A stretch of 64,000 nucleotides of DNA from Clostridium sp. M62/1 (GTDB lineage Bacteria; Bacillota; Clostridia; Lachnospirales; Lachnospiraceae): the NCBI RefSeq assembly GCF_020736365.1, contig NZ_CP085988.1, positions 417,501-481,500 on the forward strand, read 5' to 3'. Of this stretch, positions 23,920 to 58,976 are shown piece after piece. Each line of letters starts with the position of its first letter. Position 1 is the first letter of the stretch. The position numbers were made by a program, and so were the translations under genes. The notes under the pieces were generated by a model that saw only the letters and a list, made by a program, of their open reading frames with translations, did not search any database and was not told the DNA's origin.

Positions 23920-24098
23920 CTGAACAATCGGAAAAGTTCCAAAAGAGCAGGCTCAGATAAAGAGAAAAGGTACCTTAAAAAACTGCAAAATCCATACCCG
24001 GACAACAGAGAAGGAAGAGGGCAGGGGAAGCATATCGCACAAAAATCTGGATGTAAGTAAGAGGATGGAGAGAGCTATATTGTGAAAGGAGAAGAAGG

Positions 24099-24251
24099 AT
24101 GAAAGACACAGGGGTTCAAAGAGAAAGAAAATTAAAATCCGATGGTCTGCCGCAGGTGGTAAAGAGGGAAGCCGCGGCGTTCTGGGAGGATGAGAGCGGA
24201 GTGGGAGTCATTGAAATTGTGCTGATCCTCGTGGTAAATCCTACCCCCTAA
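24099..24251 (+). pseudogene. Flp-type pilin of the host Tad locus, truncated by element insertion
   Basis: A 50-codon frame ending ...FWEDESGVGVIEIVLILVV then NPTP-stop. The E-S-G-x-G-x-I-E-I-V-L-I-L-V-V core is the start of the hydrophobic helix of Flp1-type pilins in Clostridia, which normally continues for another 10-20 apolar residues. Here host coding sequence stops around 24236 and unrelated sequence follows. AAGGAGAAGAAGG precedes the ATG. The rest of the pilin is not in the window; it should lie past the right end of the element. The product could not form a stable pilin. Confidence 0.8.
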
Positions 24252-24362: not shown

Positions 24363-24436
24363 TTTAGTAGGTTTGCTGAATGGATATGTGGAGGGAAACA
24401 GGGTATTGTGTTGTAGTAAGACCAAGGAGGTGTGCT

Positions 24437-32678: not shown

Positions 32679-32918
32679 ATGATGAAAATGAAAAATCAGA
32701 TGATGAAGGTTTATACGGCGGCTGCCATGAAGGCTCTGCAGGCGAAGCAGAAGATCAGGGAAACTTCCGGCGAGGGATATGTGGATACCGCTGTAAAGAT
32801 CCTGATTGCCGTCGTGCTGGGTGCGCTGCTTCTGGCCGGCCTTTATGCCCTGTTCAATGATACGGTTCTTCCGACGCTGGTGGAGCGCGTGGAAGAAATG
32901 TTTGACTATGCCGGCTGA
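32679..32918 (+). CDS. pilin-like small membrane protein (DUF6133-type)
   Basis: 79 residues: a charged N-terminal part (about 1-30), SGEGYVDTAVKI, one long transmembrane helix (LIAVVLGALLLAGLYALF) and a short acidic end. The S-G-E-G-Y-V-D-T-A pattern before the helix recalls Flp-type prepilin cleavage/E5-like positions, and a prepilin peptidase gene overlaps its end. Best candidate for the major pilin of the element's pilus. GGAGG sits 7 bases before the ATG; a TTG at 32664 is less likely. Confidence 0.68.
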   Translation: MMKMKNQMMKVYTAAAMKALQAKQKIRETSGEGYVDTAVKILIAVVLGALLLAGLYALFNDTVLPTLVERVEEMFDYAG

Positions 32919-33360
32919 TCCGGCGGCATCCCTGCAGGGCATCCTGTTTTTTTTGCTGCTGTCTGCGGTATCGGTTTGGGACATTCGGTGCCGGAGGATC
33001 CCGGATTTTCTCCAGGCAGGGATTGCGGCATTGGCACTTTTGGATTTTTCGCCGGATCATTTGGCGGGGATCTTGTGTATGATCCCTTATCTGGCTGTTG
33101 CTCTTTTTAGCAGGAAGAAGGAAGGAATCGGTGGCGGAGATGTGAAGCTGGCGGGAAGCACCGGCCTTGTGCTGGGCCTTCCCGCAGCCCTTACGGCATC
33201 CGTGGCGGGGCTTTCCTGCTTTATTCTCTTTGGGGCAGGCCTTTCTTTATGGAAACGGGCAGGGGAAAAGGAAACCCGCTCCCCGTTTCCGGTCGGCCCA
33301 TTCCTTGCCGCAGGATGCATGTGTGCGTATGTTATGAAAATGAAAGGACTCATCGTATGA
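32908..33360 (+). CDS. A24-family prepilin peptidase of the element's pilus
   Basis: 150 residues, mostly membrane helices. The two catalytic Asp are in VWDIRCRRIPD near 24 and in GIGGGDVKLAG near 73 (G-x-G-D). It would cleave leader peptides of the element's own pilin-like proteins. The ATG overlaps the pilin-like gene by 11 bases and the end overlaps the next small gene (ATGA). Confidence 0.87.
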   Translation: MPADPAASLQGILFFLLLSAVSVWDIRCRRIPDFLQAGIAALALLDFSPDHLAGILCMIPYLAVALFSRKKEGIGGGDVKLAGSTGLVLGLPAALTASVAGLSCFILFGAGLSLWKRAGEKETRSPFPVGPFLAAGCMCAYVMKMKGLIV

Positions 33361-33452
33361 AGAAAAAAATCATGATTGCTGTCTGCGCTGTGATACCGGC
33401 GGCTGTTTTTACAGCAGTCCTGTATCGCTGCAGGAGAACCATCAGCAGGTAA
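33357..33452 (+). CDS. 31-residue membrane peptide
   Basis: MKKKIMIAVCAVIPAAVFTA then VLYRCRRTISR: a positively charged start, one hydrophobic helix and a basic end. ATGA overlap with the prepilin peptidase suggests coupled translation. It looks like a single-pass membrane peptide; role unknown. Confidence 0.5.
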   Translation: MKKKIMIAVCAVIPAAVFTAVLYRCRRTISR

Positions 33453-33458
33453 ACCGAA

Positions 33459-33494
33459 GGGGCGGGCAGAAGAAAAGCCTGCCCCATATTTTAA
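33459..33494 (+). terminator. hairpin with weak T run before cpaB
   Basis: Arms GGGGCGGGC and GCCTGCCCC (one G-T pair) around AGAAGAAAA, then ATATTTT. May act as a leaky terminator that sets pilin and assembly-gene levels apart. Confidence 0.6.
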
Positions 33495-33509
33495 CAGGAG
33501 GATGGATAT

Positions 33510-34352
33510 ATGAGTTTTTTAAAGAACAGGGCGGTAATCGGTGTGATCTGCATCGTCCTTTCCCTGATCATTTGCTTTGCGGTAACCCCGCTGTTTAACA
33601 AGGCCATCAGTGACAAAACAGAGATTGTCCGTGTGGTAAAAGAAATCCGAACCGGAGAGGAAATCACAGCGGATATGGTAAAGACCGTTGAAGTCGGAGC
33701 GTATAACCTGCCGGAGGATGTGGTAAGGAGTACGGAGACTGTCGTTGGAAAATTCGCTTCTGCGGATATGGTCCCCGGAGATTATATTATCGCGTCCAAG
33801 ATTGCGGAGGAACCAGCGGCGGAAAATGCCTATCTTTATAGCCTGACCGGGGAAAAACAGGCAATTTCCGTATCCGTCAAATCCTTTGCAAACGGCCTTT
33901 CCGGGAAGCTGCAGAGTGGGGATATTGTCTCTGTGATTGCGCCGGATTATAAGAAGCAGGGGCTGACCGTGATTCCGCCGGAATTAAAGTATGTGGAGGT
34001 AATTGCAGTCACCGCAAACAGCGGAGCGGATGCCAACACCGGAGAACATTCAGAGGATGAAGGAGACAAGGAACTTCCTGATACGGTCACGCTGTTAGTC
34101 ACACCGGAGCAGTCCATGATCCTTGCGGAGCTGGAGGCCGACGGGGATATCCATCTCTCCCTTGTGTACCGCGGGGAGCAAAAAAATGCTGCAGAGTTTG
34201 TTAAGGCGCAGGAAACCATTTTGGAAGAGATCTATGCACCGGAGGAAGAAACGGACAGGGAGGCGGAGCAAACGGGAGAGCCTGCAGAGACGGAAAGCAG
34301 TGCACAGGAGGAAACGTCGGAAAGTGGTACTGAGGAAAGCGAGGTGGGGTAA
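33510..34352 (+). CDS. CpaB/RcpC-like SAF-domain pilus assembly protein
   Basis: 280 residues. One N-terminal transmembrane helix (about 8-28), an SAF domain (VVKEIRTGEEITADMVKTVEVG ... ASADMVPGDYIIASKI, about 40-100), then a RcpC-like beta domain (AISVSVKSFANGLSGKLQSGDIVSVI), and a Glu/Thr/Ser-rich tail. CpaB proteins stabilise the Tad secretion channel. ACAGGAGGATGGATAT precedes the ATG. First gene of the assembly operon. Confidence 0.87.
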   Translation: MSFLKNRAVIGVICIVLSLIICFAVTPLFNKAISDKTEIVRVVKEIRTGEEITADMVKTVEVGAYNLPEDVVRSTETVVGKFASADMVPGDYIIASKIAEEPAAENAYLYSLTGEKQAISVSVKSFANGLSGKLQSGDIVSVIAPDYKKQGLTVIPPELKYVEVIAVTANSGADANTGEHSEDEGDKELPDTVTLLVTPEQSMILAELEADGDIHLSLVYRGEQKNAAEFVKAQETILEEIYAPEEETDREAEQTGEPAETESSAQEETSESGTEESEVG

Positions 34353-34355
34353 GCC

Positions 34356-35168
34356 TTGAACTTTTTAAAAAACAGTATTTTCAGCCGCAGCCAGAAAGGG
34401 GATGACTCCGGCTGGGAACCGGAAAAAGAGAACCGGATGTTAGCTGTCTGGGGAAGCCCCGGATCCGGAAAAACCACAACTGCGGTAAAGCTGGCAGCCC
34501 ATCTTGCAGGAAAGAAACGGGATGTGGCTCTGCTTTTATGCGATATGAATACGCCGATGCTTCCATGCATCTGTCCGCCGGGAGATCTGGAGGAGGAGCA
34601 TTCCCTGGGAAGCATTCTGGCGGCAGCCCATGTGTCGGAATCCCTGGTGCGGCATAATTGCATGACCCATAAACGGTTCCGCCACCTGACTATCCTTGGG
34701 ATGCGGAAGGGAGAAAATGAATACACCTATCCGCCTTATGAGCGCACCCAGGCGGAGGAACTGCTTTCCTGCCTGCGGGAGATTGCCCCGTATATTGTCA
34801 TTGACTGCGGAAGCCATATTGCGAATGATATCCTTTCGGCTATTGCACTGATGGAATCGGATGCGGTGCTGAGACTTGTAAACTGTGATTTAAAGTCCAT
34901 AAGCTATTTGTCCAGCCAGCTTCCCCTGCTTCGGGAGAGCAAATGGGATGCGGAGAAGCAGTATAAAGTAGCCAGCAATGTGCGTCCCAATGAGGCCAGC
35001 AGCCATATTGAACAGGTACTTGGAAGCGTGGCCTTTCAGATCCCACACTCGGAGGAAGTGGCTGCACAGGTACTGGAAGGGAATCTGTTTAAAGAACTGA
35101 GCTTAAAAGACAGCCGTGGCTTTCGAAAATCCATTGAGGCGATTACGAGGGAGGTGTTCGGATGTTAG
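34356..35168 (+). CDS. TadZ/CpaE-like MinD-type ATPase of the element's pilus
   Basis: 270 residues from a TTG 3 bases after cpaB. Unlike the host TadZ it keeps a canonical P-loop, WGSPGSGKTTTAVKLAAHLA (residues about 32-51), and has YIVIDCGSHIAND as Walker B. No receiver domain. Likely positions or energises the pilus machine. Its end overlaps tadA by 7 bases. Confidence 0.83.
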   Translation: MNFLKNSIFSRSQKGDDSGWEPEKENRMLAVWGSPGSGKTTTAVKLAAHLAGKKRDVALLLCDMNTPMLPCICPPGDLEEEHSLGSILAAAHVSESLVRHNCMTHKRFRHLTILGMRKGENEYTYPPYERTQAEELLSCLREIAPYIVIDCGSHIANDILSAIALMESDAVLRLVNCDLKSISYLSSQLPLLRESKWDAEKQYKVASNVRPNEASSHIEQVLGSVAFQIPHSEEVAAQVLEGNLFKELSLKDSRGFRKSIEAITREVFGC

Positions 35169-36763
35169 GCGAGAGACGGAGCAAAGGCGCATTTTATGAA
35201 GGGTTTGGTGAAGGTGTTCGGGAAGAAAAAGAGGCTTTAGAATCGGCATCCGTACAGCTTCCTGAGCATGATAAGGGCCTGCCTGTCGAAATGCTCCCTG
35301 AGCCGGATGCCCATATCGGCTCCCAGGAAAGAGAGGAAGAACCGGAAGCTCGATCCGATGAGGATGACGGCTATGTTCCTCCCAAAAGGACAGTCCGCAG
35401 CCTGCAGACCAAGGATCTGTTCTTCTCATCCGGCAGGGAGAATCGGGAGTTCTCGGATGTACTGAGGGAGGTGCAGGGGTATCTCTCCAAGGAATACAGC
35501 AGCCTTGTGACCGACACGGGAAGTGAGGATGCCAAATCCCAGATCCGCCGCTTTGCCGGGAAATACATCCAGGATCACCGAATTTCTGTGAAGGGGATGT
35601 CCACGGATGAACTGATCAGTGCCATTTATTCCGAGATGGCGGAGTTTGGTTTCTTGACCAAGTATATCTATGGGGAGGGGATCGAGGAAATCGATGTGAA
35701 CGCCTGGGATGATGTGGAGGTGCAGTTTTCAGGCGGAGTGACAAGGAAGCTGGATGAGCATTTTGACAGCCCGGAGCATGCCATCAACGTGGTCCGGCGT
35801 ATGCTCCATGTTTCGGGTATGGTACTCGACGATGCCAGCCCCAGCGTCCTTGGACATCTCAGTAAAAACATCCGAATTGCGGTACTTAAAACGCCTATCG
35901 TGGATGAGGATGTAGGCGTGGCCGCCTCCATTCGAATTGTCAATCCCCAGAGCATGAAAAAGGAGGATTTCCTAAGAGGCGGGACAGCCACCGGCGAAAT
36001 GCTGGATTTTCTTTCGGAGTGCATACGCTATGGTATTTCTGTCTGTGTGGCAGGAGCAACCAGCTCCGGGAAAACAACGCTCCTTGGCTGGCTTTTAACC
36101 ACCATACCGGACAGCAAACGTATTTACAGTATTGAGAACGGATCCAGGGAGCTGGCATTGGTGCGCCGAAAGGAAGGAAAAGTCGTAAATTCAGTCATTC
36201 ATACGCTTACCCGTGACAGCGAAAATGAACGCCAGCGTGTGGATCAGATTGCCCTTTTGGATATGGCGCTCCGCTTTAACCCGGACATTATTGTGGTCGG
36301 CGAGATGCGCGGCCCGGAAGCGAACGCGGCTCAGGAGGCGGCCCGCACCGGTGTGGCGGTGGTGACCACAATCCATTCCATGAGCTGCGATGCTACCTAC
36401 CGAAGGATGGTATCTTTGTGCAAGCGGGCTGTGGACATGAGCGATGAAACCCTGATGGGATTTGTGACGGAGGCGTACCCCATTGTGGCGTTCTGCAAAC
36501 AGCTGGAGAACAAGGAGAGGCGTCTGATGGAGATCATGGAATGTGAGATCCAGCCGGACGGCAGACGGGTGTTCCGTCCGCTGTTCCAGTATCAGATTAC
36601 AGAAAACCGTGTGGAGAACGGAAAATTCATCATTACGGGAAGCCATAAACAGGTAAACGCCATCTCGGACAGCCTGGCCCGCCGGTTTATGGAAAACGGG
36701 ATGCCGCAGGAAATGCTTGCAAAGCTCCTTGCAGTCCCGGAAAAGGGAAAGGAGGAAGTATGA
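35162..36763 (+). CDS. TadA/CpaF-type secretion ATPase of the element's pilus
   Basis: 533 residues. A long acidic N-terminal region (1-100) precedes the N-domain (EEIDVNAWDDVEV), the Walker A VAGATSSGKTTLLGWLL, the Asp box YSIENGSRELAL, and Walker B IIVVGEMRGPEANAAQEAARTGV with TTIHS. Long relative to host TadA and with a different box spelling. It powers assembly of the element-encoded pilus. Overlaps tadZ and tadB. Confidence 0.9.
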   Translation: MLGERRSKGAFYEGFGEGVREEKEALESASVQLPEHDKGLPVEMLPEPDAHIGSQEREEEPEARSDEDDGYVPPKRTVRSLQTKDLFFSSGRENREFSDVLREVQGYLSKEYSSLVTDTGSEDAKSQIRRFAGKYIQDHRISVKGMSTDELISAIYSEMAEFGFLTKYIYGEGIEEIDVNAWDDVEVQFSGGVTRKLDEHFDSPEHAINVVRRMLHVSGMVLDDASPSVLGHLSKNIRIAVLKTPIVDEDVGVAASIRIVNPQSMKKEDFLRGGTATGEMLDFLSECIRYGISVCVAGATSSGKTTLLGWLLTTIPDSKRIYSIENGSRELALVRRKEGKVVNSVIHTLTRDSENERQRVDQIALLDMALRFNPDIIVVGEMRGPEANAAQEAARTGVAVVTTIHSMSCDATYRRMVSLCKRAVDMSDETLMGFVTEAYPIVAFCKQLENKERRLMEIMECEIQPDGRRVFRPLFQYQITENRVENGKFIITGSHKQVNAISDSLARRFMENGMPQEMLAKLLAVPEKGKEEV

Positions 36764-37689
36764 CAGCGATTCAGTTATTAGCCTGTGCGGGAATGATCGC
36801 GGGAGCGTTCCTGATTCTGGGGATCCGGCCCGTGGAATTTACGGACAGCCTGTTTGCATGGCTTTTAAAGCCGAAAAGAAGTATCCGGGAGGAGATCAAG
36901 GAATCATCAGGAAGAAAAAAGGCGGGGATTTTGCGAAGGGAGATATCGGAAGCACAGTCCGTCCTGGAAATGACCGGACGGGGGAACCGCTTCTCTATGA
37001 TCTGCGCCATATCTCTGGCGCTGTTCTGCCTGGGAGGATCCCTGGCAATTCTGCTTGGGAATTTCTTTCTGGCTCCGGTCATGGCAGTGGGGTTTCTGTT
37101 CCTGCCATTCTGGTATGTGAAGCTAACGGCCAGCCACTACAAGAGGGATGTATCGGCGGAACTGGAAACCGCCCTTTCTGTCATCACGACCGCCTATCTT
37201 CGGACCGAGGATATCGTGACGGCCGTAGAAGAAAACATCGCGTATTTAAACCCTCCGGTGTCAAAGGTGTTTCAGAATTTCCTGACGCAGATTAAATTGG
37301 TAAACCCCAATGTGGAAGCAGCCCTTCGCGGGATGCAGGGACGGATTGATAATGAGGTATTTCGGGAATGGTGTGATGCGCTAAGCGACTGTCAGCATGA
37401 CCGCAGCTTAAAGACGACGCTTACCCCCATTGTTGCCAAGCTCTCTGATATGCGCAATGTCAATGCCGAGCTGGAGTATCTGATTGCGGAGCCGAGGAAG
37501 GAATTCCTGATCATGGTCATCTTTGTCATCGGCAATATCCCCCTTATGTATATGCTTAATAAGGACTGGTATGATGTGCTGATGCATACACCTTTGGGAC
37601 AGATCATCCTGTCCGTGACGGCCGCTGTGATTTTTGTGTCTGCCGGCTGTGTGGTAAAGCTGACCCGTCCCATTGAATACAGGAGGTGA
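36760..37689 (+). CDS. TadB-like platform protein of the element's pilus
   Basis: 309 residues; ATGA overlap with tadA. N-terminal helix (LLACAGMIAGAFLILGI), a pair of central helices (about 80-118), the T2SS-F bundle (AELETALSVITTAYLRTEDIVTAVEENI) and terminal helices (FLIMVIFVIGNIPLMYML, IILSVTAAVIFVSAGCVV). Inner-membrane platform with TadC. Confidence 0.82.
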   Translation: MTAIQLLACAGMIAGAFLILGIRPVEFTDSLFAWLLKPKRSIREEIKESSGRKKAGILRREISEAQSVLEMTGRGNRFSMICAISLALFCLGGSLAILLGNFFLAPVMAVGFLFLPFWYVKLTASHYKRDVSAELETALSVITTAYLRTEDIVTAVEENIAYLNPPVSKVFQNFLTQIKLVNPNVEAALRGMQGRIDNEVFREWCDALSDCQHDRSLKTTLTPIVAKLSDMRNVNAELEYLIAEPRKEFLIMVIFVIGNIPLMYMLNKDWYDVLMHTPLGQIILSVTAAVIFVSAGCVVKLTRPIEYRR

Positions 37690-37694
37690 GCCGG

Positions 37695-38567
37695 ATGATG
37701 GGATTATTGTTTTTATTCGGCTGTTTCCTCGCCCTTGGACTGTTCTTTCTGGCGGCGGCAGCCCTGCGCCTGCCTACCATTGGCGCGGCCAAGGCTATGT
37801 TAGGTACCGTAAAGCAGGAGCGTAAATCTGCTAAAACCCTGGAAACCGGACTGATGACTGTGGCGGTAAGGCTGGCAAAGCACATCCGGATGGATGAATA
37901 CAAGCGAGGCCGCATGGCGAATGTGCTGAAGGCCGGAGGTATCAACGTGACACCGGAGGTCTACCAGGCATATGCCCTGACGAAAGCGGGAGCGGTTCTT
38001 TTGGGAGTGATTCCCTGTGTGTTTCTGCTGCCGCTTTTGTCACCGATTGTTGTCATTTTGGCAGTGCTTCTCTACTTTAAGGAAACCCAGAAGGCAGACG
38101 AAAAGCTGAAAGCCAAGCGGGAAGAGATCGAAGGGGAGCTGCCGAGAATGGTGGCAACCATTGAGCAGGAGCTAAAATCCAGTCGCAACGTAATCGGGAT
38201 GCTGGAACGGTTTAAGACGAATGCAGGTCCGGCGCTTACCGGGGAACTGGATATCCTCTTGGCGGATATGCGCTCGTCCAACTATGAAGCAGCTCTGACC
38301 CGGTTTGAGGCAAGGCTCAATTCCCCTATGCTGTCGGACGTGGTAAGAGGGCTGATCGGTGTGCTGCGCGGCGATGACAGCGTGGTGTATTTCCAGATGC
38401 TGGCCCATGACTTTAAGCAGATCGAATTACAGCGCCTCAAAGCGGAAGCGCAGAAGATTCCGCCCAAGATCCGGGTCTTTTCCTTTGCCATGCTGATGTG
38501 CTTTCTGTTAACCTATCTTGCCATTATCTGCTATGTGGCTCTGGAGAGCCTTGGCGGGATGTTTTAA
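37695..38567 (+). CDS. TadC-like platform protein of the element's pilus
   Basis: 290 residues. AGGAGG lies 8 bases before the ATG at 37695, overlapping the tadB end. Helices at about 1-20 and 93-125 and the C-terminal IRVFSFAMLMCFLLTYLAIICYVAL frame the T2SS-F domain (GELPRMVATIEQELKSSRNVIGMLERF). Partner of the TadB-like protein. Confidence 0.82.
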   Translation: MMGLLFLFGCFLALGLFFLAAAALRLPTIGAAKAMLGTVKQERKSAKTLETGLMTVAVRLAKHIRMDEYKRGRMANVLKAGGINVTPEVYQAYALTKAGAVLLGVIPCVFLLPLLSPIVVILAVLLYFKETQKADEKLKAKREEIEGELPRMVATIEQELKSSRNVIGMLERFKTNAGPALTGELDILLADMRSSNYEAALTRFEARLNSPMLSDVVRGLIGVLRGDDSVVYFQMLAHDFKQIELQRLKAEAQKIPPKIRVFSFAMLMCFLLTYLAIICYVALESLGGMF

Positions 38568-38578
38568 GGAGGTGTATC

Positions 38579-38986
38579 GTGCAAAGGAGATTACGATATA
38601 TACTCAAAAGTCAGCGCGGTGAAGGATATGTAGATGTGATCGTTCTGGTATTGTGCGCGGTGATGGTTCTGGCCTTGGCCATGCGGGTGCTTCCTGTGTT
38701 TATCCAAAAACAGCAGTTGGATACCTTTGCCACGGAGTTGGTACGGGAGGCGGAGGTTTCCGGGCGGATCGGATCCGAAACCGACCGCCGTGCGGCGATC
38801 CTGTCGGAGCAGACAGGCCTTGATCCGGAGATTGAATGGTCGGATGGCGGAAGGATCCAGCTGAATGATGATATTACCGTCATACTGACATTGGAGACAA
38901 ATATCGGGCTATTTGGAGAATTCGCTTCCTTCCCAATTACCCTGCGCTCTCAGGCAACAGGAAAATCCGAAGTCTACTGGAAGTGA
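38579..38986 (+). CDS. DUF4320-type pseudopilin-like membrane protein
   Basis: 135 residues from a GTG, with AAGGAGG 8 bases upstream. Basic N-terminus (RRLRYILKSQRGEGYVDVI) leading into a transmembrane helix (VLVLCAVMVLALAMRVLPVF) is a TadE/prepilin-like arrangement; the G-E-G-Y-V-D pattern is shared with the pilin-like protein at 32679. C-terminal part is beta-rich and extracytoplasmic. I recall this family as DUF4320. Probably a minor pilin. Confidence 0.72.
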   Translation: MQRRLRYILKSQRGEGYVDVIVLVLCAVMVLALAMRVLPVFIQKQQLDTFATELVREAEVSGRIGSETDRRAAILSEQTGLDPEIEWSDGGRIQLNDDITVILTLETNIGLFGEFASFPITLRSQATGKSEVYWK

Positions 38987-38995
38987 GGTGGCCAT

Positions 38996-39556
38996 TTGGG
39001 AAGAAAAATCAGGAATATCTTAAAAAGTGAGCGGGCTGCGTCCTTTCCGATGACGATTGGAATCGTGCTGGCACTGATCATTCTGCTGTGCGGTATCAGC
39101 GAATATTTCCGCCTGCAGGTTATTGCAGCGGGCGTGCGGGAAGCCGTGGAGGATGCCATCATTTCTACGGTAAATGATAATTATGCCGGCGTCTATCATG
39201 GAGTCCGGGAAGGATATTCTGGAAATTACATGCCATTTGGAACGGAAGGCTGGGAGGAAACACTGGATGTGGGGGATATCTATGGATATCTGGACGATAC
39301 CATTGGTACGACCTTCCAGGGAGGCCGACATGTAAAATACGGGGATGACGGGAATCAGGAGCTGGAGTTTGCTATTGATCGTCTGGATGTTACTATACGC
39401 AATGCACCATTGGCTCCATCGGATCCGGAGAATGCACAGCGCTTTGAAGCAGATGCCCTTGTGCGGCTGGAGGTTCCGGTACGGTTTGGAGGAAGGCTCC
39501 TTCCCTCTATGTTCATTACCTTGAAGGTACAGGCGGGCTATATTGAGGTGTTTTAA
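38996..39556 (+). CDS. TadE-like pseudopilin
   Basis: 186 residues from a TTG after GAGGTGG. N-terminus KIRNILKSERAASFPMTIGI and a hydrophobic helix (LALIILLCGISEYFRLQ) are typical of TadE-like minor pilins; the rest is a soluble domain ending VPVRFGGRLLPSMFITLKVQ. Last of the tightly packed pilus run; a 130-base gap follows. Confidence 0.75.
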   Translation: MGRKIRNILKSERAASFPMTIGIVLALIILLCGISEYFRLQVIAAGVREAVEDAIISTVNDNYAGVYHGVREGYSGNYMPFGTEGWEETLDVGDIYGYLDDTIGTTFQGGRHVKYGDDGNQELEFAIDRLDVTIRNAPLAPSDPENAQRFEADALVRLEVPVRFGGRLLPSMFITLKVQAGYIEVF

Positions 39557-39688
39557 ACAATGAAAGACCGGCAGAATTGTTGGAATCGTAGATTTTAGAA
39601 GAGAATGCGAAAGTCAGATAGACTTGTGAACAAGCATACCGTATTGTGTGAGATACGATACGGAAAACGGTAAAGGAGGCTTAGAACA

Positions 39689-40297
39689 TTGAAACTGACA
39701 GAAAAGACAAAAAGGTATCTGGCAGTCGGCGGAGGGAGTATGATCTGTATTGCACTGATTGCAGTAATCAGCCTGCAGTTTGGGAAAACTTCTTCAGGAG
39801 AGGATGTCCTGCCGGAAGAAACCTCGGCGGTGACAGAAATCGTTGTAGATCCCGGTATCGTTCAAACGGAAGAAGCGAAAGCAGATATCGAGCAGGATAT
39901 AAAGCCGGAAACGGATAGGATAACAGACACCATAAAGGAAACCGAGGAAACGGTTCGTCCCGTAGACAGCCGCCCTGCGCAGACAGACCAAACGGAACAG
40001 AGTATCCAGCCGGATGTGACCAGACCGGAAGCACCAAGTGAAGATGTGCTTACGGATCCGACACAAATGCCGGATGGAACCAAGGTGGAATCACCTCCCG
40101 TGCCTGTGGAGCATGATGCGGTTGTGACACCTACGGAGCCGGCAGCAAAGCCGGATGAGCCGCAGGCGGGGGATACTAAGAATGGGCAGATTTATATTCC
40201 GGGCTTTGGCTGGGTCCAGAATAATGGCGGCGGAGGATCCGGCACGGTTGCTGAGGATATGTATGAAAACGGAAATAAGATCGGGATCATGGACTGA
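39689..40297 (+). CDS. membrane-anchored Pro/Thr/Glu-rich protein (DUF6550-type)
   Basis: 202 residues from a TTG after AAAGGAGG. One N-terminal transmembrane helix (about 11-29), then a long disordered Pro/Thr/Glu/Asp-rich stalk (30-165), and a short end GQIYIPGFGWVQNNGGGGSG that is family-conserved in my recollection (DUF6550). Looks like a surface stalk or spacer between membrane and wall. Preceded by an imperfect hairpin at about 39637-39664. Confidence 0.65.
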   Translation: MKLTEKTKRYLAVGGGSMICIALIAVISLQFGKTSSGEDVLPEETSAVTEIVVDPGIVQTEEAKADIEQDIKPETDRITDTIKETEETVRPVDSRPAQTDQTEQSIQPDVTRPEAPSEDVLTDPTQMPDGTKVESPPVPVEHDAVVTPTEPAAKPDEPQAGDTKNGQIYIPGFGWVQNNGGGGSGTVAEDMYENGNKIGIMD

Positions 40298-40328
40298 GAA
40301 CCAAATGAACCGAATCAAAAGGAAGAAG

Positions 40329-40352
40329 CATCGCGGAGACGCGGTGTTTTTT
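40329..40352 (+). terminator. terminator between the stalk protein and the large surface protein
   Basis: Arms CATCGCG and CGCGGTG around GAGA, then TTTTTT. The next gene begins 20 bases later, so it may work as an attenuator inside the operon. Confidence 0.8.
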
Positions 40353-40371
40353 CGTGGAAAGGAGCAGCTCT

Positions 40372-42075
40372 TTGAAGCGAAAATTTGGCATTTTTCTTGT
40401 TCTGGCGATACTCTCATCCCTGCTGTTTGTACTGCCGGCCTATGCGGTTGGGGAAGGAAACCTTGATGGAGGCGGCGGAAGCATGGGGCAGGGAACCACG
40501 CAGAATTTTTGGTCGCCGGGAAATGAAGGAGTACGGGTAACGGTCGTTCGGACAGAGGGAAGGGAGCCGGTAACCAGACCAATCGACCTGACCAATAAGC
40601 AGCCGGCCATTGTGTATTCATTTGGGAAAGAGTGCAAGATCTCATATAATAACGGGACAGCACTGGCAGTCAACACGGCCCCATATGAGTATGTCAATCC
40701 TGCGCAGGCCCTGCCGAGGATCATCAGTTCCCAAAGTCTTGGGCAGGCAAATATTGAGGAAATTAAAAGCTATTTTACAGATGAACAAGTCATTCGCAGT
40801 ATTGCCGGGCTTACAGGAATGGATTTTGATACGCTGATCAATGGGGAATACCGACTCTTGATTGAACCCATCAGCTTCCTGACCTTTCAGGGGAACCTGA
40901 TTGCAGCCACCGCCACAGAGGCGGCACTATATGACGAGCTGACAAGCGGAGCAGTCCGTGCGGTTCTTCCTACTGTAGCATTCCAGAACCTCCCGTTATC
41001 CATGTTTTTAGAGGTGCCGGATCTGGGATATCCGGCATGGAACGGCGGAACAACCGGTGTTCGATCCAATATGGAGATCAAAACGTCCCTGGGCCTTGGG
41101 GTTGTGCGGTTTAATGAAGAGCCTCCGGAGGAAGTGGAGGTTACTGAGTTTGACTATGAATACCGGACGAATACGGAGGTAATCACGGCGGTAGAAGTAA
41201 AAGGCGGGCAGAGCGATCCTGATGATCCGGTGTCGGTTACTTTTACTGTAGATGGGCGTTCCTATCGGGTAGACAATGTGTATTATCCGGAGGGAGACAG
41301 CCAGCTTGCCTGGATCCGCTGGACAACGCCGGAGGAACCCCAGGCAATGACGATTACAGTGCGGGTACATGGCGGAGGACATGTGGATAAAGGAACCATC
41401 CAGGTAAACATTGTGGATCTGGATGAGAACCCGCCGCCGGATCCTAACGCGGATGACCGCAATGACGATTTCAGCCGTCCATCCGTCCCGGAAAATGAGG
41501 AAAAAACTTCCGCAGAGTGGGGTGTGTGGAGACCCTGGTGGCGGGAATACTGGGTATGGCACAGCGGTGACGAGGATGATGACGGATATTGGTGCGACCA
41601 TGGTTGGTGGGAGTTTGATTTTGACCGATATTCTGCAAGCCTGACCGCCTCGATGGAGATTTCTCCAGATGAGAAAGCGCCGACCGCCAGCGGAAATACC
41701 ATGAAGTCCGGGTATGGCTTCAATGAGAGGGTGGAAACGCATGTCAGCACAAACCAAAGCTCTGCAGTTACACCTGCACAGAATGCGGTGACTTATTTCC
41801 CTGAATTCCAGTACCAGAATTTCTGGAGGCTTTTGGAGCGGATGAATAGCGGGAATGATATGGCTCATGAATTTAAGGAAAACCGTTACAGCACGTATAA
41901 CAGGCGCACCCACTTCACACCGATCTGGTATCCGGACGGGAGCTATACCGCTTATACATGGCTGATCGACTGCTGGACCCCGGCAGGGATGCTGTCCATG
42001 AACCTGACAGATTCCCTGACGATTGACGGGAACCTTTGGAGTGACTGGCACATCGCGCCGCAGACACCGGATTAA
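40372..42075 (+). CDS. large secreted Trp-rich surface protein
   Basis: 567 residues from a TTG (AAAGGAGC upstream). A clear signal peptide (KRKFGIFLVLAILSSLLFVL then PAYA) precedes a mature protein with a Gly-rich start, a domain with DTLINGEYRLLIEPISFLTF (VTA-like pilus-tip/ice-binding style), and a Trp-rich patch near residues 388-422 with nine Trp in 34 residues (WRPWWREYWVW, YWCDHGWWEF). No LPXTG or C-terminal membrane helix. Probable pilus-associated adhesin or exported conjugation factor; the role is inferred from context. Confidence 0.72.
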   Translation: MKRKFGIFLVLAILSSLLFVLPAYAVGEGNLDGGGGSMGQGTTQNFWSPGNEGVRVTVVRTEGREPVTRPIDLTNKQPAIVYSFGKECKISYNNGTALAVNTAPYEYVNPAQALPRIISSQSLGQANIEEIKSYFTDEQVIRSIAGLTGMDFDTLINGEYRLLIEPISFLTFQGNLIAATATEAALYDELTSGAVRAVLPTVAFQNLPLSMFLEVPDLGYPAWNGGTTGVRSNMEIKTSLGLGVVRFNEEPPEEVEVTEFDYEYRTNTEVITAVEVKGGQSDPDDPVSVTFTVDGRSYRVDNVYYPEGDSQLAWIRWTTPEEPQAMTITVRVHGGGHVDKGTIQVNIVDLDENPPPDPNADDRNDDFSRPSVPENEEKTSAEWGVWRPWWREYWVWHSGDEDDDGYWCDHGWWEFDFDRYSASLTASMEISPDEKAPTASGNTMKSGYGFNERVETHVSTNQSSAVTPAQNAVTYFPEFQYQNFWRLLERMNSGNDMAHEFKENRYSTYNRRTHFTPIWYPDGSYTAYTWLIDCWTPAGMLSMNLTDSLTIDGNLWSDWHIAPQTPD

Positions 42076-42104
42076 TTTTTCAGAAAAAGGAAGGAGAAAA
42101 CCAA

Positions 42105-42440
42105 ATGAGACTGAAGCGAATGAAACTGCTCCTCATCACTGCTGCACTGGCTGCCTGTGTGCTTAGCATTCCGGCTTATGCGGCATCGGGTGATGTTGCC
42201 GGAGCAATCGAAGGGACTTGGGATACGGCATCCGAACAGATCAAAACCGTGGTAAACAATGTCGTGTTTCCCGCAATTGATTTAATCCTGGCGGTATTTT
42301 TCTTTGGGAAACTCGGCACCGCATATTTTGATTACCGAAAGCATGGGCAGTTTGAATGGGCCGGCCCTGCGATCCTGTTTGCGTGCCTGGTCTTTACTCT
42401 TACCGCGCCGATGTATGTATGGCAGATCTTGGGGATGTGA
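42105..42440 (+). CDS. VirB2-like small membrane protein (DUF3852-type)
   Basis: 111 residues: signal peptide (MKLLLITAALAACVLSIPAYA), then two transmembrane helices (VVFPAIDLILAVFFFGKL and WAGPAILFACLVFTLTAPMYVW) with a short charged loop. The layout is that of T4SS pilin/VirB2-like subunits. Good AAGGAGAAAACCAA upstream. First conjugation-type gene after the Tad block. Confidence 0.72.
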   Translation: MRLKRMKLLLITAALAACVLSIPAYAASGDVAGAIEGTWDTASEQIKTVVNNVVFPAIDLILAVFFFGKLGTAYFDYRKHGQFEWAGPAILFACLVFTLTAPMYVWQILGM

Positions 42441-43526: not shown

Positions 43527-44429
43527 GTGTTCATATGGGATTTTGTCGCCGATACCGTACTCGGACAGATCGTAGACTGGATCTACGGTCAGGTGGTAGG
43601 GTTTCTTGGTGATTTTTTTATGCAGATGGGAAATATGGGCGCTGATCTGTTTGAGATGACCTGGGTGCAGTCCATTGTCCTGTTCTTTTCTTATCTGGCC
43701 TGGGCGCTTTATATCACGGGGCTTGTAGTGGCTGTGTTTGAATGCGGGATCGAATGCCAGAATGGGAGAGGCAGCATCCGTGAGACGGCAATCAATGCGG
43801 TTAAAGGATTTATGGCGGTAAGCCTGTTTACAGTGGTGCCGGTGGAACTTTATAAGCTCTGTGTATCCCTCCAGGGGAGTTTTACAGCGGATATTACCGG
43901 CTTGGGGGATGATTTCGGAACCGTTGCGTCGAATATCATTACTTCCCTGCAGGATGCGGGAACCTGGGAGGAAGCTGCGAATGCAGGTGTGTTCGGAGGC
44001 CTTAACAGTATCACAAGTCCTCTCTTGATGATCTTTATCCTGATTATGATGGGATATGCTGTGATTAAAGTGTTTTTTGCCAATTTAAAGCGCGGCGGTA
44101 TCCTGTTAATCCAGATCGCAGTGGGAAGCCTTTATATGTTCAGTGTACCGAGAGGGTATATTGACGGGTTTGTCAGCTGGTGCAAGCAGGTCATTGGGCT
44201 GTGTCTGACGACTTTCCTGCAGGCAACAGTATTGATTGCGGGCCTGATGGTAGTAAAGGATCATGCTCTTTTAGGGCTGGGACTCATGCTATCTGCCGGG
44301 GAAATCCCCAGGATTGCCGGACAGTTCGGACTGGATACAGGAACCAGAGCCAATGTGATGGGAGCGGTCTATGCGGCACAGGGAGCGGTTAACCTGACGC
44401 GTACTGTCGTACAGACCGTAGCAAAATAA
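43527..44429 (+). CDS. VirB6/TrbL-like conjugation membrane protein
   Basis: 300 residues from a GTG. About six hydrophobic segments (VQSIVLFFSYLAWALYITGLVV, FMAVSLFTVVPVELYKL, ITSPLLMIFILIMMGYAVIKVFF, GGILLIQIAVGSLYMF, LTTFLQATVLIAGLMVV) fit the polytopic TrbL/VirB6 proteins that form the T4SS inner-membrane channel. In related ICEs the same position, before PrgI-VirB4, holds this gene. Confidence 0.8.
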   Translation: MFIWDFVADTVLGQIVDWIYGQVVGFLGDFFMQMGNMGADLFEMTWVQSIVLFFSYLAWALYITGLVVAVFECGIECQNGRGSIRETAINAVKGFMAVSLFTVVPVELYKLCVSLQGSFTADITGLGDDFGTVASNIITSLQDAGTWEEAANAGVFGGLNSITSPLLMIFILIMMGYAVIKVFFANLKRGGILLIQIAVGSLYMFSVPRGYIDGFVSWCKQVIGLCLTTFLQATVLIAGLMVVKDHALLGLGLMLSAGEIPRIAGQFGLDTGTRANVMGAVYAAQGAVNLTRTVVQTVAK

Positions 44430-46864: not shown

Positions 46865-46908
46865 AAATTTAGTGCCGCCGGAAGCAATATGCTGCCGGCG
46901 GTAAATTT
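46865..46908 (+). other. long hairpin before the PrgI gene
   Basis: Arms AAATTTA-GTG-CCGCCGG and CCGGCGG-TAAATTT with a 3-base bulge and a 13-base loop; no T run follows. It ends 17 bases before the TTG start of the PrgI-like gene, where it could affect translation or RNA stability. Confidence 0.6.
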
Positions 46909-46924
46909 ATGTGGAGGTGAAGGT

Positions 46925-47209
46925 TTGTATATCTATCCGGACAACTTAAAATCCAGGGCAGTCTTATGGCTCTGGCAGCTTCGGGATATCGGTATCATCG
47001 GTGTGTGCGCTTTGATATCCGTTTTATCCCTTACACAGGCAGGATTTGTCCCGCCGATTGTCCTGACCGCGGTATATGCGTTTCTGACGATCCGCTTTGA
47101 GGATACAAGCATCCTGGATTTTATCCGGTATGCCTGTGCGTACTTTTTTACCAGACAGCAGCTCTATGAGTGGAGGTTTACGGAACATGAGCAGAGAGAA
47201 GAAACTTAA
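46925..47209 (+). CDS. PrgI/VirB3-like conjugation protein
   Basis: 94 residues from a TTG (GGAGGTGAAGG upstream). Starts YIYPDNLKSRA, followed by two transmembrane helices (RDIGIIGVCALISVLSLTQ, FVPPIVLTAVYAFLTI) and a short cytoplasmic tail with FEDTSILDFIRYACAYF. This is the small VirB3-like partner that always precedes VirB4 in Gram-positive T4SS. Overlaps the next gene by 23 bases. Confidence 0.85.
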   Translation: MYIYPDNLKSRAVLWLWQLRDIGIIGVCALISVLSLTQAGFVPPIVLTAVYAFLTIRFEDTSILDFIRYACAYFFTRQQLYEWRFTEHEQREET

Positions 47210-47786
47210 AAAGCAGGAGGCAAAGAGACAGGCTTCCACAAGGCAGCTCATCGGGGCAAAAGAGATCACGGACTACAGCCTTGTGACTTATGGACAGGGA
47301 GAATTGGTGTATTTTATCGTGAAGCCGACCAACATCTCTGTGCTCTCCCAGGCCAGCGTGGGGGCAAGGATCTATGCGCTGATGACGGTACTAAAAGGCG
47401 TAGCGGAAATTGAAATGTTGTGCTTAAACAGCCGGGAGAGCTTTGAGGATAATAAGCAGTTTTTGAGGTCCCGGATTGAGCAGGAGGAAAATCCCGTAGT
47501 CCGAAAGCTGCTGGAAAAAGACCTGACTCATCTGGATCGGATCCAGGTGCAGATGGCAACCGCCCGCGAATTTTTGATCGTAATCCGGTTGAAGGATGAA
47601 AAAGAAACCGAGGTGTTCCCCTATCTTGCGCGTATTGAAAAGTCCTTAAAGGAGCAGGGCTTTTCCGTCAAGCGTGCGGATAAGGAAGATATCAAAAGAC
47701 TTTTAGCTGTGTACTATGAGCAGAACGTGACCACCGAAAAGTTTGAAGATTTTGACGGGGAGCGCTGGATTATCCCGGACGATTAA
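47187..47786 (+). CDS. conjugation protein encoded between PrgI and VirB4
   Basis: 199 residues, strongly charged N-terminus (SREKKLKKQEAKRQAS) and a soluble alpha/beta body resembling the N-terminal domain of VirB4-type proteins (YFIVKPTNISVLSQASVGARIYALMTVLKG). No Walker motif. Fixed position next to VirB4 suggests it is a VirB4 partner; 13 bases separate them. Confidence 0.65.
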   Translation: MSREKKLKKQEAKRQASTRQLIGAKEITDYSLVTYGQGELVYFIVKPTNISVLSQASVGARIYALMTVLKGVAEIEMLCLNSRESFEDNKQFLRSRIEQEENPVVRKLLEKDLTHLDRIQVQMATAREFLIVIRLKDEKETEVFPYLARIEKSLKEQGFSVKRADKEDIKRLLAVYYEQNVTTEKFEDFDGERWIIPDD

Positions 47787-47799
47787 AGGAGGTACTCAT

Positions 47800-49632
47800 T
47801 TGAGAAGAACAAATACAGCTGCGGCACCCGAAATGGCTGGGGATGTGAGAATCCAGGAATTTCTGGATATGATCGCCCCATCGGTCATCAAGTTTGAAAC
47901 CGATCACTTTATCTGCGGCAATACCTTCCGCTGCGTGTGGGCGTTGAGGGAATACCCGACATCCACCGATGAGCAGGCGATCCTTTCCCATCTTGGGGAA
48001 AAAGACGGGGTGACCCTTCGGATCTATACCCGCCATGTGACGCCGATGGAGGAAAAGAAGATTATCAGCAACGCGGCGAACAAAAACCGCATGGACCGCA
48101 GCAATACGAACGATCTTCAGCAGACCGTGCTGGCGGAGAGCAACCTGCAGGATGTGGCGACAATTGTAGCACAGATGCACCGAAACCGGGAACCGCTCCT
48201 TCACACGGCGGTATATTTGGAGCTGTGTGCCCATGATATCGACCAGTTAAAGCTTCTTCAGACCGAGGTACTGACGGAACTGATCCGCGCAAAGTTAAAT
48301 GTAGACCGGCTGATGCTAAGGCAACAGCAAGGGTTCCAGTGTGTAATGCCAACCGGATGGAACCTGTTCCGTGACCAGTTTGAGCGGGTGCTTCCCGCGA
48401 GCAGTGTGGCGAACCTATACCCTTTTAACTATTCGGGGAAAACGGATCCCAACGGATTCTATATCGGCAGGGATAAGTTCGGCAGCAACGTGCTGGTGGA
48501 TTTTAACCGCCGGGCGGATGACAAGACCAATGCCAACATCCTGATCCTGGGAAACAGCGGCCAGGGAAAGAGCTACCTGTTAAAGCTTCTGCTCACTAAC
48601 CTTCGGGAATCCGGCATGCGGATCGTGGCTCTGGATCCGGAAATGGAATATGAGGATCTGACGAATAACCTGGGCGGCTGCTTTATTGACCTGATGAGCG
48701 GGGAGTTTCTTATCAATCCTCTGGAGCCAAAGACCTGGGATGATACAGGAAGCCCGGAGGATCTGGATGCGCCGCAGACCTTCCGCATACGCTCCCGCCT
48801 GTCGCAGCATATCAGCTTCTTAAAAGATTTTTTCCGAAGCTACAAGGATTTCAGCGACCGGGAAATCGATGTGATCGAGATCATGTTACAGAAACTTTAT
48901 ACAAAATGGGGGATCAGCGATCAGAGTCCTTTTGACCGGATGGCCTCCACGGACTACCCGATCCTTTCCGACTTTTACACCTTTATCGAGCAGGAGTATA
49001 AGGATTTTGATGAAAACAAGAGACAGCTCTATACTGCAGAGATGCTCCAGAGCATCCTGTTGGGGCTTAACTCTATGTGTGTGGGAGCAGAGAGCAAGTT
49101 TTTTAACGGCCACACGAATATCACGGATGCGGGCTTTATTACTTTTGGAGTAAAAGGACTTTTACAGGCAGGGAGGAGCCTTAAAAATGCCCTGTTGTTT
49201 AATATCCTATCCTTTATGTCCGATGAACTTTTGACGGAAGGGAATACCGCGGCAAGCCTGGATGAGTTCTATCTGTTCCTTTCAAACCTGACCGCCGTGG
49301 AATATGTCCGCAACTTTATGAAGCGTGTCAGAAAGAAAGAATCGGCGGTCATCATTGCCAGTCAGAACCTGGAGGATTTTAATTTGGACGGTGTGAAGGA
49401 GTACACCAAGCCGCTGTTTTCCATCCCGACCCATCAGTTCCTGTTCAACGCCGGCAGTATTGATGCCAGATTTTATACGGATACATTGCAGTTAGAGGAC
49501 AGTGAGTATAACCTGATCCGCTACCCACAGAGGGGCGTGTGTCTCTATAAATGCGGCAATGAGCGTTATAACCTGATGGTTCATGCACCGGAACACAAGG
49601 CGAGGCTGTTCGGAAAGGCAGGTGGAAGATAA
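47800..49632 (+). CDS. VirB4-type conjugation ATPase
   Basis: 610 residues from a TTG after AAAGGAGG. N-terminal domain (1-240), then Walker A LGNSGQGKSYLLKLL (250-264), EMEYEDL, and C-terminal motifs including SLDEFYLFLSNL, IIASQNLEDF and the FNAGS/TDTLQL end typical of VirB4/TraE. It energises substrate translocation and assembly of the T4SS. Confidence 0.95.
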   Translation: MRRTNTAAAPEMAGDVRIQEFLDMIAPSVIKFETDHFICGNTFRCVWALREYPTSTDEQAILSHLGEKDGVTLRIYTRHVTPMEEKKIISNAANKNRMDRSNTNDLQQTVLAESNLQDVATIVAQMHRNREPLLHTAVYLELCAHDIDQLKLLQTEVLTELIRAKLNVDRLMLRQQQGFQCVMPTGWNLFRDQFERVLPASSVANLYPFNYSGKTDPNGFYIGRDKFGSNVLVDFNRRADDKTNANILILGNSGQGKSYLLKLLLTNLRESGMRIVALDPEMEYEDLTNNLGGCFIDLMSGEFLINPLEPKTWDDTGSPEDLDAPQTFRIRSRLSQHISFLKDFFRSYKDFSDREIDVIEIMLQKLYTKWGISDQSPFDRMASTDYPILSDFYTFIEQEYKDFDENKRQLYTAEMLQSILLGLNSMCVGAESKFFNGHTNITDAGFITFGVKGLLQAGRSLKNALLFNILSFMSDELLTEGNTAASLDEFYLFLSNLTAVEYVRNFMKRVRKKESAVIIASQNLEDFNLDGVKEYTKPLFSIPTHQFLFNAGSIDARFYTDTLQLEDSEYNLIRYPQRGVCLYKCGNERYNLMVHAPEHKARLFGKAGGR

Positions 49633-51714: not shown

Positions 51715-51731
51715 AGAAAGGGGGAATGCCT

Positions 51732-52772
51732 ATGGCAGCTCCGGCCGCAGTAGTGGCGGCAAAGGCCGTCCTGGCCACGGCAGCGGATAAACGAACGAGG
51801 ACTGTGGTTCTTTCTGTAGCTGCGGCACTGCTTGTTCCGTTTATCTTAATTATGACTGTTATCTTATGTACCTTATCCGGAGCGGCGGATCATAACACCT
51901 CAGCCGTAAATACGGCGTTTCATGGCGGGTATCTATCTTCAAAGGTACCAGGCCAATACCGGATGTACATTGAGAAGATGCAGGACTGCTTTCTTAATCT
52001 GGATCAGGCAGTCGCAGAGATTAATGACATGGCAGAGAATGAAACTTTAGATGCGGATCAGGTAAAATCGGTTTTTTATTCTCTGTTTTTTGGCGCGGAC
52101 CAGCCCCGCATGGGCATGGAAGAATACCGGAAATTTGCAGATTGCTTTGTGGCGTATGAGGAGAGAGAGGACGAAGAAGGGGACAGCTATACGGTGGCTG
52201 TGCCGGTTCATGACCTGCAGACGGTCTATTTCAACCTGAATTCTGTGTTTGGCATATCGGCAGCCATGGAAACTCAGGTCAATGCGAACCGAATTTATAC
52301 GCTGGTAAAATACGGACAAGCCCTGCCGGGAGGAAACGGTATGCTGCCGGGAGAGGCCATGGGAGACGGCAGCTTTGCGGCTCTGATGGCGGAAGCAACC
52401 AAATACATTGGCTGGCCTTATGTGTGGGGAGGAAGCTCGCCAGCGACCAGCTTTGACTGCAGCGGATATATTTGCTGGGTCTATACCAAGTCCGGTGTCT
52501 ATAATCTTCCCCGTACCACGGCCCAGGGAATCTTCGATCAGTGTGCAGTAATCCCCAAGGAGGAAGCCAAACCCGGCGACCTGATCTTTTTTACAGGAAC
52601 CTATGCGTCCGCAAGCCCTGTAAGCCATGTAGGGATCTATGTGGGAGGAAACCAAATGCTACACTGCGGGTCCCCCATCGGGTATGCCAATATTGATTCC
52701 GCTTATTGGTCCGGGCATTTCTATGCGATGGGGCGGCTTCCGGGAGGAGGGACTTATGAAAGCGACCTTTGA
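51732..52772 (+). CDS. NlpC/P60 peptidoglycan hydrolase of the T4SS
   Basis: 346 residues. A membrane anchor at about 25-48, a helical middle, and a C-terminal NlpC/P60 domain (about 215-340) with catalytic C243 in FDCSGYI, H299 in SHVGIYVGG and H311 in MLHCGSP. It would open the cell wall for the transfer channel, like VirB1 or CwlT. No transmembrane beyond the anchor. An ATG 6 bases earlier (51726) is an alternative start. Has its own promoter. Confidence 0.9.
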   Translation: MAAPAAVVAAKAVLATAADKRTRTVVLSVAAALLVPFILIMTVILCTLSGAADHNTSAVNTAFHGGYLSSKVPGQYRMYIEKMQDCFLNLDQAVAEINDMAENETLDADQVKSVFYSLFFGADQPRMGMEEYRKFADCFVAYEEREDEEGDSYTVAVPVHDLQTVYFNLNSVFGISAAMETQVNANRIYTLVKYGQALPGGNGMLPGEAMGDGSFAALMAEATKYIGWPYVWGGSSPATSFDCSGYICWVYTKSGVYNLPRTTAQGIFDQCAVIPKEEAKPGDLIFFTGTYASASPVSHVGIYVGGNQMLHCGSPIGYANIDSAYWSGHFYAMGRLPGGGTYESDL

Positions 52773-58963: not shown

Positions 58964-58976
58964 AGGGAGGAATGAA

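Follow-up and report, generated by a model that had tools for sequence, protein, structure and literature searches.

Linkage of a putative conjugative Tad pilus module to type IV secretion genes on a mobile element of Clostridium sp. M62/1 and its relatives

A 64,000-nucleotide stretch of the Clostridium sp. M62/1 genome (the window; G000:C1:417501-481500 of 3.92 Mb in two contigs) carries a putative integrative and conjugative element (ICE) in which a run of Tad pilus genes precedes the genes of a type IV secretion system (T4SS). From the linkage of the two gene sets, their co-divergence and the selection acting on them, we infer a role in mating-pair formation: the element probably encodes a conjugative Tad pilus of its own, with which donors would reach recipients and hold them. 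The run (32679-42440) is a single compact series of plus-strand genes. It extends from the ATG of a pilin gene at 32679 to the stop codon of a VirB2-like (DUF3852) gene at 42440, in the order DUF6133, A24 peptidase, CpaB, TadZ, TadA, TadB, TadC, DUF4320, a second pseudopilin-like protein, DUF6550, a Trp-rich exported protein and DUF3852. All genes named in a first-pass annotation of this DNA are present on one strand, with its order and positions; what it called a stalk-like protein is the DUF6550 protein.

Composition of the Tad module

The candidate major Flp-like pilin is a small DUF6133 protein (32679..32918; PF19629, 9.9e-32) whose open frame begins at 32664. It is followed by an A24 prepilin peptidase (32908..33360; PF01478, 3e-10), with an open frame from 32806 and a likely start, judged by eye, near 32908; the GxGD pattern was found in 31 of 32 members of this family. 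CpaB/RcpC (33510..34352) passes the TIGR03177 equivalog cut-off (8.1e-22) and also matches PF16976 and SAF. The next gene (34356..35168) encodes a MinD/ParA-like ATPase that was assigned to TadZ/CpaE by position, as the generic models PF13614 (AAA_31; 7.8e-07) and PF01656 scored over their cut-offs and no TadZ-specific model matched.

TadA/CpaF (35162..36763) matches PF00437 (T2SSE) at 1.3e-23. The Walker A pattern is present in 60 of the 63 family members and a strict Walker-B-like pattern in 34. When the family profile was compared with the Protein Data Bank (PDB), CpaF was the best match (1.1e-41, positions 40-423 of 455), whereas the best VirB11 relative scored 3.2e-21, and the idea that TadA is merely the VirB11 of the T4SS was rejected accordingly. 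For the putative platform protein TadB (36760..37689), no relevant Pfam family was found among 21 members, a single one of which matches TrbL at 0.0015, and hhalign against the host's chromosomal TadB gave a weak C-terminal match (E 0.0017, 59 columns, probability 15). The second putative platform protein, TadC (37686..38567), matches PF00482 (T2SSF) below the cut-off when scanned alone (0.003); of 19 family members scanned, 10 have hits at up to 0.01.

Two pseudopilin-like genes follow, namely a TadE-like DUF4320 gene (38558..38986; PF14208, 2.4e-36; open frame from 38498, start placed by eye) and a gene without a Pfam match (38996..39556), TadF-like by its position and by its N-terminus with a conserved hydrophobic segment. 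The relatives of DUF6133 and DUF4320 have a common consensus, RGEGY[IV]D, ahead of a hydrophobic segment. The strict motif occurs in 21 of 40 DUF6133 and 58 of 81 DUF4320 proteins; of 81 second pseudopilins, 53 fit a pattern of our own making. We take GEGY[IV]D plus a hydrophobic stretch to be the form of a prepilin site, with the acidic residue at +5. On this pattern, DUF6133 and DUF4320 qualify as small Flp-type pilin or pseudopilin proteins with a predicted processing site. The DUF6550 protein (39689..40297; PF20187, 2.6e-25) is Pro/Thr-rich and has an N-terminal hydrophobic segment. The scores given for DUF6133, A24, CpaB, AAA_31, T2SSE, DUF4320 and DUF6550, and that for DUF3852 below, all exceed the respective cut-offs.

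The open frames of TadZ, TadA, TadB and TadC overlap by 4-7 bp, wider gaps are found after A24 (149 bp) and ahead of DUF6550 (132 bp), and 29 bp separate the end of the module from the VirB2-like gene. No secretin was matched in the Pfam scan of the module genes, as expected for a monoderm host. Judged by its predicted proteins, the module is a monoderm Tad set in which TadB is named mainly by position.

The last gene of the module encodes the Trp-rich exported protein (40354..42075; no Pfam match), which marks the element Tad clade. At least 3767 relatives were detected at 1e-10 among 7995 candidates scored; those among the matches listed are annotated as hypothetical proteins. An AlphaFold2 (AF2) model from 64 sequences (predicted local distance difference test score, pLDDT, 86) contains a signal-like N-terminal helix, an N-terminal domain, an Ig/CARDB-like sandwich and a C-terminal sandwich, the two last being beta-sandwich domains. 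Structure and profile matches were too weak to name a function, and alignment A2 of the family contains no invariant or nearly invariant Cys. The protein is nevertheless our best candidate for a tip, adhesive or wall-anchoring part of the pilus. Its C-terminal domain also matches open frames of ~1000 residues in other Clostridia (e.g. G608:C1:1191183-1191599).

Linkage of the module to T4SS genes

The first T4SS gene past the module encodes the VirB2/TrbC-like DUF3852 protein (42105..42440; PF12963, 4.1e-46; TrbC, 7.5e-05, below cut-off). Further 3', again on the plus strand, lie TrbL_5 (43527..44429; PF19511, 3.3e-153), a split VirB4, an NlpC/P60 cell-wall hydrolase with a presumed VirB1-like role (51726..52772; PF00877, 1.4e-24), a MobL relaxase with Sel1 repeats (55321..58014; PF18555, 1.4e-31) and the VirD4/TraG coupling protein (58770..60803; PF02534, 1.6e-44). 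MobL, VirD4 and TrbL_5 each score over their cut-offs, so relaxase, coupling protein and VirB6-like channel are present. The N-terminal part of VirB4 has its own gene (47097..47786, with a true start later than that of the open frame), and its Mbov_0397-like ATPase part (47743..49632) reaches 1.3e-88 with NF045975, below the cut-off, probably because the protein is split. The same division into an N-terminal and an ATPase open reading frame (ORF) is found in relatives, with both parts at 56 loci, some of them far apart.

To assess whether the Tad genes belong to the core of the element, TrbL_5 was used as the marker of this T4SS type. It is present in 6 of 250 genomes sampled from the family, and a pattern-based scan of one genome per species (84,980 species) yielded 338 relatives, of which the best 80 loci (70 different TrbL sequences) were kept; they partly overlap with our other surveys (e.g. 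G527/L104, G388_C18/L144, G038/L099/L107). Tad motor, platform, CpaB or TadZ genes lie upstream of TrbL_5 in 54 of the 80. At nine further loci (L085, L108, L109, L111, L125, L126, L128, L143, L155) only the later Tad genes (pseudopilin, DUF6550, Trp-rich) are visible up to the edge of the stretch, and in L143 an unrelated ORF stands ahead of DUF4320. Ten loci with less than 5 kb of upstream contig were too short to score, and four were scored neither way: the upstream flank is filled by a cargo cassette in L133 and L156, and other DNA lies upstream of the Trp-rich gene in L149 and L136. The first-pass annotation had held that Tad genes missing from most otherwise identical elements would speak against its reading; we found 54 loci with them and three without. 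L133, L155 and L156 have a similar cassette ahead of TrbL_5 that looks, by eye, ArsR/permease-like; in L155 it lies between the Trp-rich gene and TrbL_5.

Gene arrangement is equally steady. The Trp-rich and VirB2-like genes lie on a single strand at all 60 loci holding both, with a gap of at most 200 bp in 53. All eight core genes are full length in 20 of the 22 loci with CpaB and Trp-rich genes, and in the remaining two the stretch ends within CpaB.

Three surveys, which share some loci with each other and with the TrbL_5 set, extend the linkage beyond this T4SS type. A TadA search of the 250 family genomes, with at most five candidates scored per genome, found element-clade TadA at 15 or more loci in 11 genomes (scores of at least 274 bits, the lowest from a fragment; next match, 121 bits). 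T4SS genes are linked at 14 of 15 loci, judged across contigs for G223 and G227, and the remaining one (G016) is a 9-kb contig, too short to tell. The Trp-rich profile matches 35 of 391 class genomes at some level; 20 places besides our own genome were fetched (17 full-length, 3 split or partial), with C-terminal-only and other fragment matches set aside. T4SS genes occur at 18 of them; the other two are cut by contig ends, and in G340 the VirB2-like gene alone is seen ahead of the contig end. Among 72,556 plasmids, six encode the Trp-rich protein. The same six rank highest among the plasmids for TadA; each has T4SS genes nearby and is typed 'non-mobilizable' in PLSDB. Across the family, class and plasmid surveys, no locus of the Tad clade with enough context was found without nearby T4SS genes.

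In G000 and G046, with one or two contigs each, the distance to a VirD4 gene is 11.6 to 25.3 kb for all five Tad loci of the element clade. The DNA within 26 kb of VirD4 makes up about 11% and 8% of these genomes, respectively, giving a probability of ~7e-6 for five of five by chance; the 26-kb distance was picked after seeing the data, the VirD4 list omits weak fragments, and G046 is flagged as 8% contaminated. The two other T2SSE-type ATPase loci tested in G000 are 38 and 65 kb from VirD4, the nearer one being the interrupted host Tad locus described below.

By a grouping of our own, numbered here, the Tad clade sits on at least six T4SS backbones. Type I (TrbL_5, MobL) is that of the window element. 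Type II combines a CD1110-type VirB4, a CD1115-type VirD4 and a MobA-type relaxase (G164 and, by similarity, the 4.00 Mb locus of G046). In type III (TrbL_4, MobA-type relaxase) Tad lies within the T4SS operon, between TrbL and VirB4; G054 and the 1.27 Mb locus of G046 belong here by Pfam, and G573, G264 and G394_C1, where the Trp-rich gene is elsewhere, by similarity. Type IV has VirD4 just upstream of Tad, a different gene order and a large VirB4 with an N-terminus weakly like PrgI (0.001, below cut-off, in our own genome). It comprises G119, G149, the 6.80 Mb locus of G046, G013, G559, a Subdoligranulum plasmid and a locus of our own genome at 3.13-3.15 Mb. The last is a second Tad module of the same clade in Clostridium sp. 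M62/1 (G000:C1 3.134-3.149 Mb; L062, L196). Type V consists of pLS20_p028-type plasmids of Peptostreptococcaceae, with MobP2 where a relaxase is in view, and type VI of a MobP3 plasmid of an Oscillospiraceae. In addition, PrgI, a VirB4-like ATPase and NlpC/P60 adjoin Tad on pESS17301a.

In a TadA tree of 83 rows, the 66 element rows and 17 chromosomal rows are split at 100/100. The two type II rows fall at two places within type I, which points to at least two exchanges between backbones (direction inferred); types III and V are mixed, type IV forms a single clade and several rows are long-branched. Chance capture of a host Tad system was rejected, since element TadA forms a clade separate from chromosomal TadA. 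A wider proposal is that the portable 'conjugative Tad' module (DUF6133/DUF4320, A24, CpaB, TadZ-A-B-C, DUF6550, Trp-rich) is a general mating apparatus of monoderm Clostridia with a retractile pilus, common to ICEs and plasmids of at least six T4SS types and swapped between these, and that the type III motor is perhaps mechanically coupled to the channel. We put this forward tentatively, giving it slightly less than an even chance.

Co-divergence, loss and alternative readings

Distances between Tad proteins follow those between T4SS proteins, with Mantel r values of 0.70-0.91 (n 31-60), compared with 0.86 for TrbL and VirB4. Median dN/dS values, from up to 14 hand-picked near pairs, are 0.065 for TadA, 0.071 for TadB, 0.076 for TadC, 0.096 for DUF4320, 0.107 for the Trp-rich protein and 0.124 for the second pseudopilin; for the T4SS they are 0.056 (TrbL), 0.055 (VirB4) and 0.119 (VirB2-like). 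By this measure most Tad genes are under purifying selection, like the T4SS genes.

From the families involved, a mechanism can be proposed. The DUF6133 pilin and the two pseudopilins would be processed by the element's own A24 peptidase, and TadA, TadB and TadC, with TadZ and CpaB, would polymerise the pilus. It would then cross the wall, touch a recipient and pull it near by retraction, after which the separate MobL/VirD4/VirB4/TrbL system would pass the DNA. In Caulobacter, CpaF is reported to be one motor for both extension and retraction (PMC12019362), and by analogy a single bifunctional TadA/CpaF motor may drive retraction here. Pilus formation, contact with recipients and a dependence of transfer on pili are thus expectations of the model.

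Several observations weigh against a mating pilus. TadB is recognised mainly by position, gene order differs in the type IV modules, and dN/dS is looser for A24 (0.24, 2 pairs) and DUF6550 (0.26, 14 pairs). Individual modules are broken: tadA is interrupted in G046 at 1.27 Mb and 6.80 Mb and in G149 and split in G388_C18, and a split Trp-rich gene occurs in G608, G507 and G013_C19. Three of the 80 TrbL_5 loci (L134, L135, L078) lack the module and keep the T4SS, as does G106, a distant cousin with 48% TrbL identity. Finally, linkage alone is no proof of function, and a host-useful pilus could ride as cargo.

In the near-identical Pseudoflavonifractor loci L134 and L135, the closest gene recognised ahead of the VirB2-like one is SpoVG or a Dam-type methylase; their lack of Tad looks like a single loss event, as they are nested among Tad-bearing relatives in a quick tree. 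L078 (Clostridium porci) is the top TrbL match, with 92% identity, yet the Tad module is gone; an intron-type ORF replaces the stretch from ArdA to DUF6550, and the Trp-rich ORF is left without its signal peptide. By sequence, L078 has lost the module by deletion. The quick tree gave two Tad gain/loss changes with L078 coded as 'Tad', a count too low by about one. The ORF that marks the L078 deletion (4809-6787) resembles, by eye, a group II intron protein, as does the one breaking tadA in G046:C1 at 1.27 Mb (L070, 7883-9709). The broken modules of G046:C1 at 6.80 Mb (L068) and G149:C1 (L067) have equal scores and may be one element.

These Tad-less relatives bear on how the two systems would work together. 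In a hybrid channel, the Tad motor and pseudopilus would stand in the DNA-translocation path, with TadA replacing VirB11. To our knowledge, monoderm T4SS lack a VirB11 ATPase. TadA is a VirB11 relative, the T4SS operon of most type III elements encloses Tad, with TrbL on one side and VirB4 on the other, and a review proposes the same for the type IV pilus of PAPI-1 (PMC12857230). We nevertheless consider such a channel improbable: TadA is far closer to CpaF than to VirB11, a pilus set is kept, pilin and peptidase included, and in the Tad-less relatives the rest of the T4SS is still in place, which argues for an aid to contact rather than a part of the channel. The first-pass annotation had proposed a mating pilus within a hybrid Tad plus T4SS transfer machine. 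The pilus is still the best inference from linkage, co-divergence and selection; the single machine stays a conjecture, and L134, L135, L078 and, distantly, G106, which keep a T4SS without Tad, suggest that the channel may not need Tad.

Alternatively, the pilus may aid surface colonisation by the host and take no part in transfer, its genes being carried along for their fitness benefit. Tad pili are described as adhesins in several bacteria (PMC5696575), accessory surface genes are reported to be common on C. difficile elements (PMC6814731), and the module has been lost from some elements. Such a cargo adhesin would, however, hardly be expected to keep a steady position upstream of the same VirB2-like gene, to co-diverge with the T4SS, to recur on several T4SS backbones and to have T4SS genes at every locus with enough context. 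The hosts also range from gut commensals to relatives of Desulfosporosinus and Sedimentibacter. Taken together, these points make it unlikely.

Other pilus-linked roles, namely exclusion of other elements, DNA uptake, biofilm seeding with an indirect gain in transfer, or protein secretion by a pseudopilus, seem very improbable to us. A Tad system of Micrococcus is reported to be required for transformation (PMC5696575), but family scans of the module revealed no competence gene, and the module is paired with export machinery. A dedicated conjugative pilus is also favoured by the chromosomal Tad system of another clade that the host already possesses.

Genomic setting and comparison with known systems

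That host Tad locus (18902-24236) has no Trp-rich protein and is interrupted within the Flp pilin gene; what is left of flp, and the tad genes that come after it, follow ~81.5 kb further on, beyond the window (window-equivalent ~105,754; G000:C1 about 523,250; locus L203). The split of flp around an ~81.5-kb island holding the ICE indicates that the element sits within the host pilin gene. The idea that the element family usually integrates in flp was rejected: G038, G223, G013 and G119 all carry ICE-clade Tad modules (type IV in G119), yet flp is unbroken at the Tad locus found in each. G222, of the same genus, has a truncated flp and a short remnant resembling, by eye, the ends at 24.25-26.1 kb of the window.

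Recombinase genes lie at 24380 on the left and at window-equivalent 103725-105050, outside the window, on the right. No common repeat of 11 bp or more was found between the two element ends tested, and both recombinases are absent from type I relatives within the stretches examined. Judged by eye, the left 'integrase' (24380-25957) is similar to the third of three recombinases at window-equivalent 85-90 kb, a trio that we take to be Tn554-like. It may be a transposon remnant rather than the ICE's own integrase. Upstream of the module lie ArdA, Dam-type methylase, YodL and SpoVG genes. Downstream, the label 'PrgI' at 46889-47209 is by position only, Pfam having found nothing, and between VirB4 and NlpC/P60 lies an amidoligase gene (PF12224, 49648-50709), a neighbour often seen in type I elements.

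Conjugative type IV pili are already known in Gram-negative bacteria. The IncI plasmids R64 and TP114 likewise encode a type IV filament together with a conjugative T4SS, and the pilins of TP114 are reported to matter for transfer in broth and in the mouse gut, not on solid support (PMC9045228). They differ from the window element in being Gram-negative and Pil-type, with a PilV shufflon adhesin; our system is Tad-type and monoderm. PAPI-1 of Pseudomonas also encodes its pilus on the mobile island itself, and the pilus is reported as essential for its transfer, with VirB4 and VirD4 as the only clear T4SS homologues (PMC12857230); it is, again, Gram-negative, and the window element has a fuller, monoderm T4SS.

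Among Gram-positive bacteria, a Cutibacterium acnes plasmid bears a tad locus together with transfer genes; its pilin was detected and appendages were seen, and the authors call the functional link to transfer unclear (PMC5696575). By description, these actinobacterial plasmids are set apart by transfer genes one of which encodes an FtsK-domain protein of TraB-like type. In Lachnospiraceae, the chromosomal Tad/Flp loci have TadA, TadZ, A24, TadB/C and Flp-type pilins in common with the module, but their TadA proteins are only 24-31% identical among the matches listed and form the separate clade described above; the Trp-rich protein is missing from the host locus, and the other loci were viewed with short flanks. 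The thioester-domain adhesin of pLS20 is a Gram-positive surface protein reported to be needed for efficient conjugation in liquid; it is unlike our system in that no pilus system is involved and in that the Trp-rich protein has no conserved Cys.

Tad systems are said to be often found on plasmids (PMC6668835), and CpaB/CpaE/CpaF genes are mentioned in passing for a suspected C. difficile plasmid contig (PMC5337907). The whole word 'Tad' is absent from the main text of a December 2025 review of T4SS (PMC12857230). In literature searches covering the best-ranked titles and open-licence PMC articles, we recognised no paper that links a Tad module to clostridial ICEs, and found none on the clostridial module described here. 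If pili form, the first-pass annotation may have generalised too far for this element family in stating that conjugative pili are normally absent from Gram-positive ICEs.

Little is understood of how monoderm donors locate recipients and hold on to them. If the module is a mating pilus, it would explain how a large set of elements brings about contact (338 TrbL_5 relatives and at least 3767 relatives of the Trp-rich protein), give a function to DUF6133, DUF4320, DUF6550 and DUF3852, and provide a marker for conjugative plasmids that MOB-typing misses, with the Tad-less relatives as a natural comparison for the elements that bear it.

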